From: Dehalococcoidia bacterium
GTDB lineage: Bacteria; Chloroflexota; Dehalococcoidia; CAUJGQ01
Direction: 5' to 3'
Assembly (NCBI GenBank): GCA_035310145.1
Contig: DATGEL010000094.1
Span: forward strand, 1 to 64,000
DNA length: 64,000 bases
The position numbers and the translations under genes were made by a program. Below, piece after piece: positions 4,161-7,977 of this stretch. Under the pieces are notes generated by a model. That model was not told the DNA's origin. It did no database searches and worked only from the letters and a program-made list of their open reading frames with translations. Numbering within the stretch: position 1 is the first letter of the stretch; each line of letters starts with the position of its first letter.

Positions 4161-4254
4161 CGCGTCCTCAGGCCGCGCGCGTCGCCGCTGCTCACGCGCC
4201 CCCCATCGCCCCATTGTAGAAGATCAATTCTCTTACACAGAAACGCGAATGCTG

Positions 4255-5133
4255 TTACGGCGCCGCCGCCAGCCAGCCGATGCCGAAGGCCAGGCTGCCC
4301 GCGATCAGCAGGCCCCAGGCCCGCCCGAGGCCCGCCTCGCCACCCCGCCGCGACACGCCGATCGCCGCGGCCAGCGCCAGCAGCGCCGCCCCTGCGCCGG
4401 CGGCCACCACCCCCGTGCGGTAGCCGGCGAGCGGCGCCAGCACCAGCCCGGCGGCCACAGCCAGCGCCAGCGCCAGCCGTGAGCCGAGCACCGCGCCGCG
4501 CTCGCCCAGCCGGTGCGCCAGGCCACGCACGCCGGCCCGTGCGTCGCTCTCGATGTCGGGCGCGGTGTTGCCGAGATAGAGCGAGACGCCGAGCAGGGCG
4601 CCCAGCGGATACGCCCACAGCAGCGCCGCCGAGAAGCGGCCGAGCGCGGTCCAGACCCAGAGCGGCAGCAGCGGCAGCGCCACGATGTAGGTGACGATGC
4701 TCCACGGCGTGCGCTTGAGCCCGAGATCGTAGGCCAGGCCGCAGGCGAGGCCGGCCATCGCCAGCGCCCAGCCGCCCACGCCCAGCGTCAGCGCCAGGGC
4801 GCCGCCGGCTGCCGCCGCACCCGCGGCCACGAGCCAGGCCGCGCGCCGGCTGAGCGCGCCGGCCACGATCGGCTTCCACGGCTTGGCGAGGCGGTCGAGT
4901 TCGACATCGGCGGCGTCGTTGGCGGCGCCGATCGCGCTCTGCAGGCAGAACATCACGACCAGCATCCGCAAGAGCCGCCCGCCGTCCGGCGCCCCGCGCG
5001 CCGCGACGAGCGCGAACAGCGCCACGGCGACGACGTTGGCGAACACGGGAAAGGGATGGATCACGCGCGCGGCGCTGAGCAGGCGGCGCCGGCCCCGCGG
5101 CCGTGCCGTGACCAGGCGCTGCTCCACCGTCAC
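4255..5133 (-). CDS. UbiA-family prenyltransferase
   Basis: A 292-aa integral membrane prenyltransferase with about eight hydrophobic helices. The first Asp-rich motif NDAADVELD (NDxxDxxxD type) lies near residues 70-80, followed by RLAKPWKPIVAGALS as in the family. The second Asp motif is TAPDIESDARAG. These proteins attach an isoprenoid chain to an aromatic ring (quinone, chlorophyll or heme O pathways); the acceptor cannot be told here, and no menaquinone genes are adjacent. GTG 5133 is preferred because GGGAGGGG lies just upstream; an in-frame start at 5229 would add 32 polar residues. Confidence 0.8.
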   Translation of the reverse strand: MTVEQRLVTARPRGRRRLLSAARVIHPFPVFANVVAVALFALVAARGAPDGGRLLRMLVVMFCLQSAIGAANDAADVELDRLAKPWKPIVAGALSRRAAWLVAAGAAAAGGALALTLGVGGWALAMAGLACGLAYDLGLKRTPWSIVTYIVALPLLPLWVWTALGRFSAALLWAYPLGALLGVSLYLGNTAPDIESDARAGVRGLAHRLGERGAVLGSRLALALAVAAGLVLAPLAGYRTGVVAAGAGAALLALAAAIGVSRRGGEAGLGRAWGLLIAGSLAFGIGWLAAAP

Positions 5134-5268
5134 CTGCCCCTCCCCGCGCCTAACCCCGCGTTGATTCAACCTCGCCGCTCCGCCGCGATCGGAAGAACGC
5201 CCGTCTCCCTTCCCCTCATGTCTCATCATGGCTCAGGCGGAAGGGTTGGATGAGGACAAACGGTCGCT

Positions 5269-5307
5269 CTCGGACAACCCCTTCCTCGCAGGAAAGGGTT
5301 GTCCGAG
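5269..5307. repeat. long hairpin, 18-bp arms with 3-base loop
   Basis: Arms 5269-5286 (CTCGGACAACCCCTTCCT) and 5290-5307 are inverted copies with a single mismatch, separated by CGC. It lies upstream of the hsp70 promoter and upstream of the divergent prenyltransferase. It resembles an extragenic palindrome, but no second copy of this sequence was seen in the window. Confidence 0.6.
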
Positions 5308-5330
5308 CCCAAGCGAGGCAGGGATAGGCC

Positions 5331-5360
5331 TTGACGCGCCCGGCGCCGCTCCTCTAGCAT
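5331..5360 (+). promoter_or_regulatory. candidate promoter of the hsp70-like gene
   Basis: TTGACG (5331-5336), an 18-base spacer, then TAGCAT (5355-5360) would place the transcript start near 5367, giving a leader of about 185 nt before ATG 5554. No CIRCE element or heat-shock operator was recognised. Confidence 0.45.
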
Positions 5361-5486
5361 ACGGATTGTTGGCCGGGCCGGATGCACGCATTCGGCGGCC
5401 CGAAGCAGGTTTGCGCCGTGTGGCTAGGCCCGCCGAGATCGCTGCCACGCCTCTCCCGTGAGGAGGGGCGGGAACTATGTAGAGCG

Positions 5487-5517
5487 CCCGTCTCGCGTTG
5501 AGCGAGGCGGGTTTTTT
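5487..5517 (+). terminator. intrinsic terminator inside the hsp70 leader
   Basis: CCCGTCTCGC (5487-5496), loop GTTGA, GCGAGGCGGG (5502-5511) and six T residues (5512-5517). The stem is 10 bp with one G-T pair. It lies 36 bases in front of ATG 5554 and on the same strand. It is therefore either an attenuator or the end of a short independent RNA. The upstream segment GAGGGGCGGG (about 5463-5472) could pair with the left arm and form an alternative structure. Confidence 0.75.
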
Positions 5518-5553
5518 GTTGCCCGCGACGCGGGCGGGCAGAGAGGGAATGCG

Positions 5554-6915
5554 ATGACGCTCAGCGTCGGCCTCGACTTCGGCACCTCAAACTCCTCCGT
5601 CGCCGTCTACGACGGGCAGCGCGTGACCCTGGCGCCGCTCGACGCCGCCGGACGCGATCCGTCCGTGATGCGCTCGCTGCTCTACCTCACGAAGCAGGGT
5701 GAGCGCTTCGTCGGCCAGGAAGCGTTCGACCGGCACCAGCGCGACAACGTCGGCCGCGCGGTGAAGCTGGAGCGACACTACGTCGGCGATGTGACGATGA
5801 CCTTCTCCGGAGTAGGCACGATTACGATCGAGGCGAACGCGCTGATCGACGTGAACGAGCCGGGGCGCCTCTTCCAGTCGATTAAGTCGCTGCTGCCCGA
5901 CCGCGTCTTCGCCAGGACCTCGGTCTACGGCGTCGATCTCACCGCAGAAGACCTGGTCGTGCTGCTGGCCGGCGAGATCGTGCAGCGGGCCGAGCGCTTC
6001 CTCGGGCGCCCGATCGAGCGGCTGACCGTCGGCCGGCCCGTGCACTTCTCCGCGAAGGCCGCCGACGACGCGCTCGCCCGCGAGCGGCTGCGTGCGGCCG
6101 TGGCGCGGCTCGGCGTACCGCACCTGGATTTCCTGGAAGAGCCGGTCGCCGCCGGCATCGGCTTCGCGCAGCAGGGCGCGGCGCCGGCCGACGGGCGTCC
6201 CTTCCTCGTCTTCGACTTCGGCGGCGGCACGCTGGACGTGACGGTGCTGCGTGGGGCCGGCGAACGGGCGGAGGTGCTGGCCACCGGCGGCACGCCGATC
6301 GGCGGCGATCTGCTGGACCGCCGCATCGTCGAAGCGCGGCTGCTGCGCCAGTTCGGCGAGAGCGCGACATACGGCCCGCGCCGGCTGCCAGTGCCGCGCC
6401 ACATCCTCGCCCGCCTGCTCGACTGGCAGACGCTCTACCTGCTCAACCGCCCCCAGCCGCTGGCGCAGATCGAGGAGATCCAGCGCTCCTCCTCGCAGCC
6501 GCGCGAGCTGGCGAACCTGCATACGCTGGTGACGCGCGGCTACGGCGCGGCGCTCTACCGCGCGGTCGAAGAGGCGAAGCAGCGGCTCTCCGAGGCCGGC
6601 CACGCGCCGATCGCCCTGGAGCGCGAAGGCATCGACGTGCGCGACGTGCTGACGCGCGAGGGGTTCGAAGGCATCATCCGCGCCCAGTACGACGCCGCGC
6701 TGGCGCTGGTCGACGCCGTCGTACGCGAAGCAGGCGTCGCGCCGGAGGCCGTGGGCGCGCTGGTGACGACGGGCGGCTCCTCGCGCATTCCCCTGTTTCA
6801 GCGCGGCCTGCGCGGGCGCTTTCCCAACGCGCGGCTGGCGGAGCAGCACGCCTTCACCAGTGTCGCCGCCGGCCTGGCGATCGCGGGCTGGCAGGGCCGC
6901 CGCGCCGCCGCCTGA
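5554..6915 (+). CDS. short Hsp70-family (YegD-like) ATPase
   Basis: A 453-aa actin-fold ATPase of the Hsp70 superfamily without the substrate-binding domain of DnaK. Phosphate-1 loop GLDFGTSNS is at residues 6-14, phosphate-2 FDFGGGTLDVTVL near 220-232, and the adenosine motif TTGGSSRIP near 405. An insert around residues 285-350 is typical of YegD-like proteins, and total length matches E. coli YegD (about 450 aa). It probably acts in the cytoplasm on an unknown client; no DnaJ or GrpE is adjacent. ATG 5554 with GAGAGGGA upstream is preferred over an in-frame GTG at 5458, which would place the terminator inside the coding region. Confidence 0.85.
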   Translation: MTLSVGLDFGTSNSSVAVYDGQRVTLAPLDAAGRDPSVMRSLLYLTKQGERFVGQEAFDRHQRDNVGRAVKLERHYVGDVTMTFSGVGTITIEANALIDVNEPGRLFQSIKSLLPDRVFARTSVYGVDLTAEDLVVLLAGEIVQRAERFLGRPIERLTVGRPVHFSAKAADDALARERLRAAVARLGVPHLDFLEEPVAAGIGFAQQGAAPADGRPFLVFDFGGGTLDVTVLRGAGERAEVLATGGTPIGGDLLDRRIVEARLLRQFGESATYGPRRLPVPRHILARLLDWQTLYLLNRPQPLAQIEEIQRSSSQPRELANLHTLVTRGYGAALYRAVEEAKQRLSEAGHAPIALEREGIDVRDVLTREGFEGIIRAQYDAALALVDAVVREAGVAPEAVGALVTTGGSSRIPLFQRGLRGRFPNARLAEQHAFTSVAAGLAIAGWQGRRAAA

Positions 6916-6924
6916 TGCGCCGGC

Positions 6925-7977
6925 TCAGCCCGTGTGCGACCAGTCGGCCGCGCTGCCCGCCGCCATCTGCTGGCGGCCGCTGCCGTCGGCCTGCATGCGC
7001 CAGAGCGTGCCGCCGCTGTCGCCCGTGTCGCTGTAGAGCAACTGGGAGCCGTCGGGAGACCACGCTTCCACGACGCCGCTGCCGAGGTCGCTGTCTTTGC
7101 CCGTCGCCGGGTCGTAGACGTGGATCGACCAGCCGTCGCTTCCGCCCACGCGGTAGGCGAGCAGGCCGCCGGCCGACCACAGCGGGTTTTGCCCGTCGGC
7201 GGCGACGAGCTGAGCGGCGCTGCCGTCGGCACCGGCGATGTACAGGACGACGCTGATCGAGCCGCTCTGCAACGCCTGGCTGGAGAAGGCGACGTGCGAG
7301 CCATCGGCGGAGAAGGCAAGCTGCGAGCCGGCCACGAAGGGCTGCGCCGCGCCGCCGCCCGTGGCCGCGGCGTATGTCGCATTGCTCGCCCCCGCGCTGC
7401 CGGCGCAGCGGCTGAACAGCGCCGTGCCCGCCGGCGACCAGCCCTCGTTGAACAGGCAGAGGTTGCCCGCCGAGCCAAGTTGACGCGGCGCGGTGCTGCC
7501 ATCGGCGGCCGCCGCCCAGATCGCGGCGGCGCTGAGGTTCGTGACCAGACGGTAGGAGACCTGGGAGCCGTCCGGCGACCAGCGCGGCGTGTCGGCCACC
7601 ACGCCCGGCGCGGTGCAGCCGTCCTCGCCGCAACCGCTGGGCGCTACGGCCTGTGTCGTGATCGCGTGGGCGTTCGTGCCGTCGGCGTTCATCACCCAGG
7701 CGTTGCCGTCCGGGCCGATGAAGGTGATCTGCTTGCCGTCGGGCGACCAGCGCGGCTCGGCGGCGCTGCGCCCGGCCGGCGCCGTCCAGATGCGGCTCGG
7801 CGTGCCGCCGCCGCCTGGCAGGGTGTAGATGCCGTCGCCGCGGGTGAAGACGATCGTGCCGGCGTTCGTGGCGGCTTGCACGTGGGGCGCCAGGGCGAAG
7901 ACGGCGAGCGCGAGGCAGAGCAGCGCCGCCGGCAGCGCCGGCCGCGTGATTCGCCGTTGTCGCTCGCTGCCCCGCAT
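6925..7977 (-). CDS. secreted TolB-like beta-propeller (PD40 repeats)
   Basis: A 350-aa exported protein. The signal peptide is at residues 1-36 (a basic start, then PAALLCLALAVFALAP, cleavage near VQAAT). The mature chain carries WD40-like PD40 blades: RWSPDGKQITF, RWSPDGSQVSYR, AFSADGSHVAFS and AWSPDGSQLLYS. It most likely folds as one six- or seven-bladed propeller acting as a binding scaffold outside the membrane. ATG 7977 follows GAGGAA. It converges with the hsp70-like gene 9 bp away. No Tol-Pal genes are near, so a true TolB role is not supported. Confidence 0.75.
   Translation of the reverse strand: MRGSERQRRITRPALPAALLCLALAVFALAPHVQAATNAGTIVFTRGDGIYTLPGGGGTPSRIWTAPAGRSAAEPRWSPDGKQITFIGPDGNAWVMNADGTNAHAITTQAVAPSGCGEDGCTAPGVVADTPRWSPDGSQVSYRLVTNLSAAAIWAAAADGSTAPRQLGSAGNLCLFNEGWSPAGTALFSRCAGSAGASNATYAAATGGGAAQPFVAGSQLAFSADGSHVAFSSQALQSGSISVVLYIAGADGSAAQLVAADGQNPLWSAGGLLAYRVGGSDGWSIHVYDPATGKDSDLGSGVVEAWSPDGSQLLYSDTGDSGGTLWRMQADGSGRQQMAAGSAADWSHTG

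Follow-up and report, generated by a model that had tools for sequence, protein, structure and literature searches.

Genomic context and architecture of the leader

The window analysed here, meaning the whole 64-kb stretch from a Dehalococcoidia bacterium (GCA_035310145.1, contig DATGEL010000094.1; genome of 5.3 Mb in 148 contigs), contains a gene for an Hsp70 family protein, a divergent gene for a UbiA-family prenyltransferase and, between the two, a leader with promoter, hairpins and terminator (Table 1). The product of the Hsp70-like gene matches Pfam HSP70 with an E-value of 2.3e-24, and its top NCBIfam model is PRK11678 ("molecular chaperone"), with a score below the cut-off of that model. 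The label YegD-like follows what we take to be the E. coli member of PRK11678. In the proposed unit, this gene is the only one downstream of the leader, and there is no codirectional gene upstream. Since the UbiA-family gene is divergent, the terminator cannot serve to end an upstream transcript.

Table 1. Features of the Hsp70-like locus (positions in the window)
Feature	Position	Strand	Details
UbiA-family prenyltransferase gene, divergent	4255..5229	-	
Sigma-70-like promoter	5331..5360	+	TTGACG-18-TAGCAT; only promoter-like site in 4200-7000
5' hairpin P1	5377..5396	+	8 bp, 4-nt loop; read from sequence
Small hairpin	5415..5428	+	GCC-GTGT-GGC, then TAGG; counterpart of GGNN-ATGC-NNCTAGG in relatives
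Hairpin P2	5448..5470	+	9 bp, loop CGTGA; computed fold
Possible antiterminator	5465..5494	+	5465-5472 (GGGGCGGG) pairing with 5487-5494 (CCCGTCTC)
Intrinsic terminator	5486..5517	+	11-bp stem, 5-nt loop, six T; fold and terminator scan
Probable ribosome-binding site of the Hsp70 gene	5540..5549	+	AGAGAGGGAA; -7.0 kcal/mol with anti-SD
YegD-like Hsp70 family protein gene	5554..6915	+	453 aa; Pfam HSP70, NCBIfam, tree

The initial annotation had placed promoter-like hexamers, a GC-rich leader with several hairpins and a textbook terminator directly in front of the ATG, and our analysis bears out each of these elements. The scan that returned the single promoter-like site found a mean of 0.0 sites in shuffled sequence (sd 0.1), and the expected transcription start lies at about 5367. 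From there, a GC-rich leader of about 150 nt runs to the terminator; the segment 5366-5520 folds with -79.8 kcal/mol (z = -3.08), a value that 1 of 200 shuffles reached. Besides P2 and the terminator, the leader contains P1, whose pairs recur in a sub-threshold Rfam alignment but are absent from the minimum-energy fold. The terminator stem (5486-5512) is followed directly by the run of six T, and its score is -21.9 kcal/mol; the 200 nt preceding the ATG, dinucleotide-shuffled 40 times, never scored as well. An intrinsic terminator thus stands between promoter and start codon, as in an attenuator. Only 36 nt separate the T-tract from the ATG and therefore leave no room for a second promoter.

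A further structured element was seen in the stretch that separates the promoter regions of the divergent UbiA and Hsp70 genes. It is a near-perfect palindrome (CTCGGACAACCC..GGGTTGTCCGAG) at 5269-5307, and the segment 5262-5330 that holds it folds with -37.5 kcal/mol (z -4.6). A pattern search found its core once in the genome. The palindrome could be an operator or a leader hairpin of the UbiA gene.

The leader in related genomes

At the DNA level, the window resembles its relatives too little for BLAST to be of use. Searched against 60 relatives, the leader sequence hit nothing beyond itself and two short stretches put down to chance; viral contigs yielded no match. Relatives were accessible via the gene. 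Of 294 genomes of the class, 6 (the window's genome counted) encode close homologues of the protein, and one more has a truncated copy. In a tree from which the gene fragments L010 and L019 were left out, the window gene is sister to the five usable genes of families f66 and f50 with support 98/98, on a long branch. The same layout of promoter, hairpin and terminator stands before the same gene at eight loci in seven Chloroflexota genomes, window included. Six of the seven other leaders come from the single family f66 (L005 and L010, two copies in one genome, L006, L007, L008 and L019), and the seventh, L009, belongs to family f50. A lack of conservation in relatives, named by the initial annotation as the finding that would count against its reading, was therefore not observed.

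All seven related leaders have, as read from the sequence, a promoter TTGACA-17-(GATACT, GACACT or TAGACT) in the equivalent place. A terminator of <= -12 kcal/mol is present at 8/8 clade loci, compared with 1.3 expected from dinucleotide shuffles, and lies 48-131 nt before the Hsp70 start in the six of seven relatives for which the spacing was computed. P2 has a structural counterpart in 7/7 other leaders, and several relatives carry a 5' hairpin different from P1. The upstream neighbour, on the other hand, changes. In the window it is the UbiA gene (profile match); named by eye from translations, it is enoyl-CoA-hydratase-like in L019 and thiamine-pyrophosphate-enzyme-like in L009/L098, both divergent, DEAD-box-helicase-like in L006 and L007 and integrase-like in L008, these codirectional. 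L005 has an unnamed codirectional ORF.

Within f66, the leader from ATGAGG to the terminator shows a mean identity of 82% over ten pairs (window and L010 left out, L009 counted apart), compared with 77% for the promoter, 75% for the first 100 nt of the Hsp70 gene, 61% for the 100 nt before the promoter and 58% for the spacer after the terminator. Pairing was counted over seven leaders, leaving out L010, which shares its genome and arms with L005. The terminator pairs are intact in 69/70 cells, with double changes in 9/10 pairs, the P2 pairs in 73/77 and those of the small hairpin GGNN-RTGY-NNCT in 23/28. As the arms were aligned by hand, these counts lean towards structure; when whole arms were reassigned at random, 28 to 33 of 2000 trials paired as well as the real set. 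Covariation in a seven-row alignment is barely above shuffles (24/500 reach the observed value), and this control is weak because the f66 rows are close.

Two side observations concern the related loci. Between terminator and Hsp70 start, L005 (1341-1430) and L010 (1340-1425) hold by eye two to three imperfect 24-nt repeats (GGGTTTTTGTTTGCCCAAAA-type), through which an open frame runs. In genome G113, the Hsp70 gene at L009 2470-2811 (- strand) is interrupted in the deposited MAG sequence.

Outside the clade, we considered 30 distant Chloroflexota loci (29 fetched, from 50 of 400 genomes that matched, plus L018). In the 200 nt that precede the gene, 6 of them (expected 2.2) have a hairpin resembling a terminator at <= -12 kcal/mol, and 9 of 30 (expected 3.5) at <= -10 kcal/mol; since this criterion was changed after the sequences had been read, the excess is only suggestive. 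An earlier, different terminator scan over 330 nt had flagged 5 of 29. By eye, many distant loci have a plain promoter and lack a leader hairpin. Across the phylum, the gene is therefore not generally preceded by a leader terminator. One distant homologue, L051, has two strong hairpins some 30-60 nt ahead of the gene; as both use the same GGCC, they would, judged by eye, be mutually exclusive, a terminator/antiterminator layout cleaner than that of the window.

Model searches and known RNA families

A covariance model built from the seven other leaders, window excluded, ranks the window leader first in the 64 kb with 22.4 bits (E 4.6e-4), the next match scoring 8.0. Across 294 genomes, it gives strong matches (E < 1e-10) at seven places in six genomes, all seven before the Hsp70 gene. 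In this search, which used stricter filters, nothing in the window's own genome reaches E <= 0.1, and places in other genomes that have no relation to the leader score 19-26 bits (up to 25.9). Since such places score equally high, the 22.4 bits convince by position only: the argument rests on the location before the orthologous gene, as the window leader could not be recognized from the model match by itself. A pattern search with GAGGNNATGCNNCTAGG gave matches in 15/294 genomes, of which six places in five genomes, all f66, are the leader; the remaining matches proved to be unrelated sequence on reading.

The initial annotation had failed to match the leader to known classes, and a covariance search of Rfam agrees with this: no family reaches its gathering score in the window or the seven related loci, and permissive thresholds yielded only sub-threshold matches in window and relatives, none of them credible. 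Among these, the anti-hemB match in the window and L094 (13 and 15.9 bits, cut-off 49.5) was read as a generic hairpin plus terminator. An identity with SRP RNA (RF00169) was rejected, as the one match in the genome sits on another contig, and one with 6S RNA (RF00013), which has no match in the whole genome, leader region included. The passages considered from the literature on premature terminators and bacterial RNA motifs contain no description of this leader. The element is new to Rfam and of a known kind, probably an attenuator.

Antiterminator pairing and short leader ORF

It had also been proposed that an upstream segment can pair with the left arm of the terminator. Such a pairing exists (Table 1) and has -18.3 kcal/mol, compared with -19.4 for the terminator arms, but it is neither above chance nor kept in the relatives. 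Shuffled upstream sequences pair equally well with the left arm in 14% of cases for the window and in 24-99% for the seven relatives, so that our test, which covered pairing with the left arm only, does not point to an antiterminator conserved among the eight leaders. An alternative antiterminator structure is the mark of the classical attenuator subtype, and some attenuators do without one.

The relatives carry a short ORF that starts at a conserved ATGAGG..ATGC and ends just before P2. Read from the sequence, its products are MRKCF, MRKCY, MRICH, MRRCR, MMRRCR and MRRCLQN, that is MR(K/R/I)C followed by one to three further codons; the MRRCR frame, in L008, starts with GTG. A Shine-Dalgarno sequence of -5.8 to -11.6 kcal/mol precedes the ORF in 4/7 leaders (L006, L007, L009, L019). 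The ORF of L005, and by eye also that of L010, lies roughly 6 nt away from where the transcript is expected to start. The ORF overlaps the ATGC of GGNN-ATGC-NNCTAGG, and because the same letters form the hairpin GGNN-RTGY-NNCT, a peptide and an RNA reading compete. A frame that overlaps from this ATGC and stays open far downstream in several relatives was rejected as a protein because, by eye, its sequence is not conserved beyond the terminator.

In the window, the aligned frame (TTT GCG CCG TGT GGC TAG) lacks a start codon, and a translated leader ORF with regulatory codons of the trp type is not found there. The strongest other ribosome entry of the window is a Met-stop, ATGTAG at 5477-5482; the SD that precedes it, within the P2 arm, is strong (-12.2 kcal/mol). 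The Met-stop has a partner only in L019 (ATGTAA), and we treat it as a lead only.

Discussion

Our data suggest that the leader is probably the 5' part of the Hsp70-like mRNA and acts in cis as a transcription attenuator. The initial annotation had recognized the layout of a riboswitch or attenuator, and its presence before the same gene at 8/8 clade loci, together with the missing room for a second promoter, supports this description. Transcription would start at about 5367 and the polymerase would make about 150 nt, after which the terminator would form and end most transcripts, while some signal would allow part of the polymerases to pass the terminator and transcribe the Hsp70-like gene. 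We infer that termination is conditional, and the terminated leader RNA may accumulate. In the relatives, the likeliest sensor would be a ribosome on the short leader ORF, which would couple chaperone expression to the translation state. Because this ORF is not preserved in the window, the trigger there might be another uORF, the RNA itself or a protein. A bolder and rather speculative version of this scheme holds that a ribosome-sensing attenuator of a new sort gates the YegD-like Hsp70 in this class. Stalled or damaged translation would be sensed by a leader ORF five to seven codons long, whose invariant MRxC start (RUGAGG..AUGC) also forms a tiny hairpin; the ORF would then open the terminator, and in the window's lineage it would have been replaced, for example by the ATGTAG. 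We consider this version unlikely in its full form.

The initial annotation had also offered an independent small RNA of about 150 nt, whose 3' end would be the terminator and which would leave the Hsp70 gene to be read by leakage. Indeed, the leader by itself makes up a complete transcription unit of that size, and a promoter-hairpin-terminator unit with no convincing codirectional gene directly behind it was seen in an unrelated genome of the class (G291, L105 1480-1600), where a strong promoter, two hairpins and a terminator resemble a free small RNA of about 90 nt. An independent RNA would however be expected at a locus of its own, untied to one downstream gene, whereas all strong model matches precede the Hsp70 gene with varying upstream neighbours, no free copy was found in the 294 genomes, and the window gene has no other visible promoter. 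That the leader travels with the Hsp70 gene and not with whatever lies on its other side is what an element acting in cis predicts; we therefore favour the attenuator and regard the small RNA as an unlikely explanation.

Two other explanations accept the leader as part of the mRNA and differ in what, if anything, it senses. The terminator might be a fixed, partial one that sets a constant basal expression and senses nothing; that no conserved alternative fold was found and that the terminator sequence varies while its pairing is kept would fit such a device. We nevertheless think it quite unlikely, given that bases outside the terminator are conserved in f66 as well, as the identity over the whole leader indicates, and that the start of the short ORF is kept with its SD in several relatives. 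A small-molecule riboswitch of an undescribed class controlling the terminator appears improbable. Several hairpins with an expression platform, the conservation of the unpaired CTAGG and ACGA in the f66 leaders and the lack of a fitting Rfam class would agree with it, but L009 does not have CTAGG, P2 and a 4-bp hairpin together make a small candidate aptamer, and no metabolic gene is attached.

Compared with known systems, the attenuator proposed here shares features with several and is identical to none. Ribosome-mediated transcription attenuators with a short uORF control the trp operon and whiB7/wblC, and Canestrari et al. 2020 reportedly described cysteine-responsive polycysteine uORFs of mycobacteria. 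The short ORF of our relatives, and of these only, resembles the latter as a very short uORF with a Cys codon near the stop, but has a single Cys instead of a tract and a chaperone gene downstream. According to the sections considered of PMC13236596, mycobacterial cysteine genes are regulated by translation attenuation, and in the ilvB1 attenuator of Mycobacterium tuberculosis the U-tract ends at +126 and the gene starts at +168. The promoter, hairpins and intrinsic terminator before one target gene, the similar leader size and the short ORF in the relatives are in line with ilvB1 as presented there (PMC13236596); unlike ilvB1, trp and whiB7/wblC, our leaders have no regulatory codon run and yielded no conserved antiterminator in the left-arm pairing test, and the window does not have the relatives' leader ORF. 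A 5' terminator kept before one gene family also resembles the premature terminators catalogued by synteny in PMC2965389, where, in the parts consulted, synteny serves to remove small-RNA terminators, the same logic as that of a leader staying with its Hsp70 gene; the portions of that text that were searched hold no mention of Chloroflex-, Hsp70, DnaK or chaperones. A conserved structured element before an Hsp70 gene is likewise known from the dnaK motif of Enterobacteriaceae, which, in the passage concerned, overlaps a potential promoter and is proposed to act as ssDNA (PMC11109978). That motif, as described in the same passage, differs from ours in the clade and in the gene, which here is YegD-like and not dnaK.

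Within f66, the leader is more conserved than the start of its gene, which suggests that the timing of expression matters. To our knowledge, neither the trigger nor the clients of YegD-like Hsp70 proteins have been established. As an element at loci where no Rfam family is recognized, the window and seven relatives alike, the leader would add a cis-regulatory RNA to Chloroflexota, and it offers a direct handle on when the YegD-like chaperone is needed.
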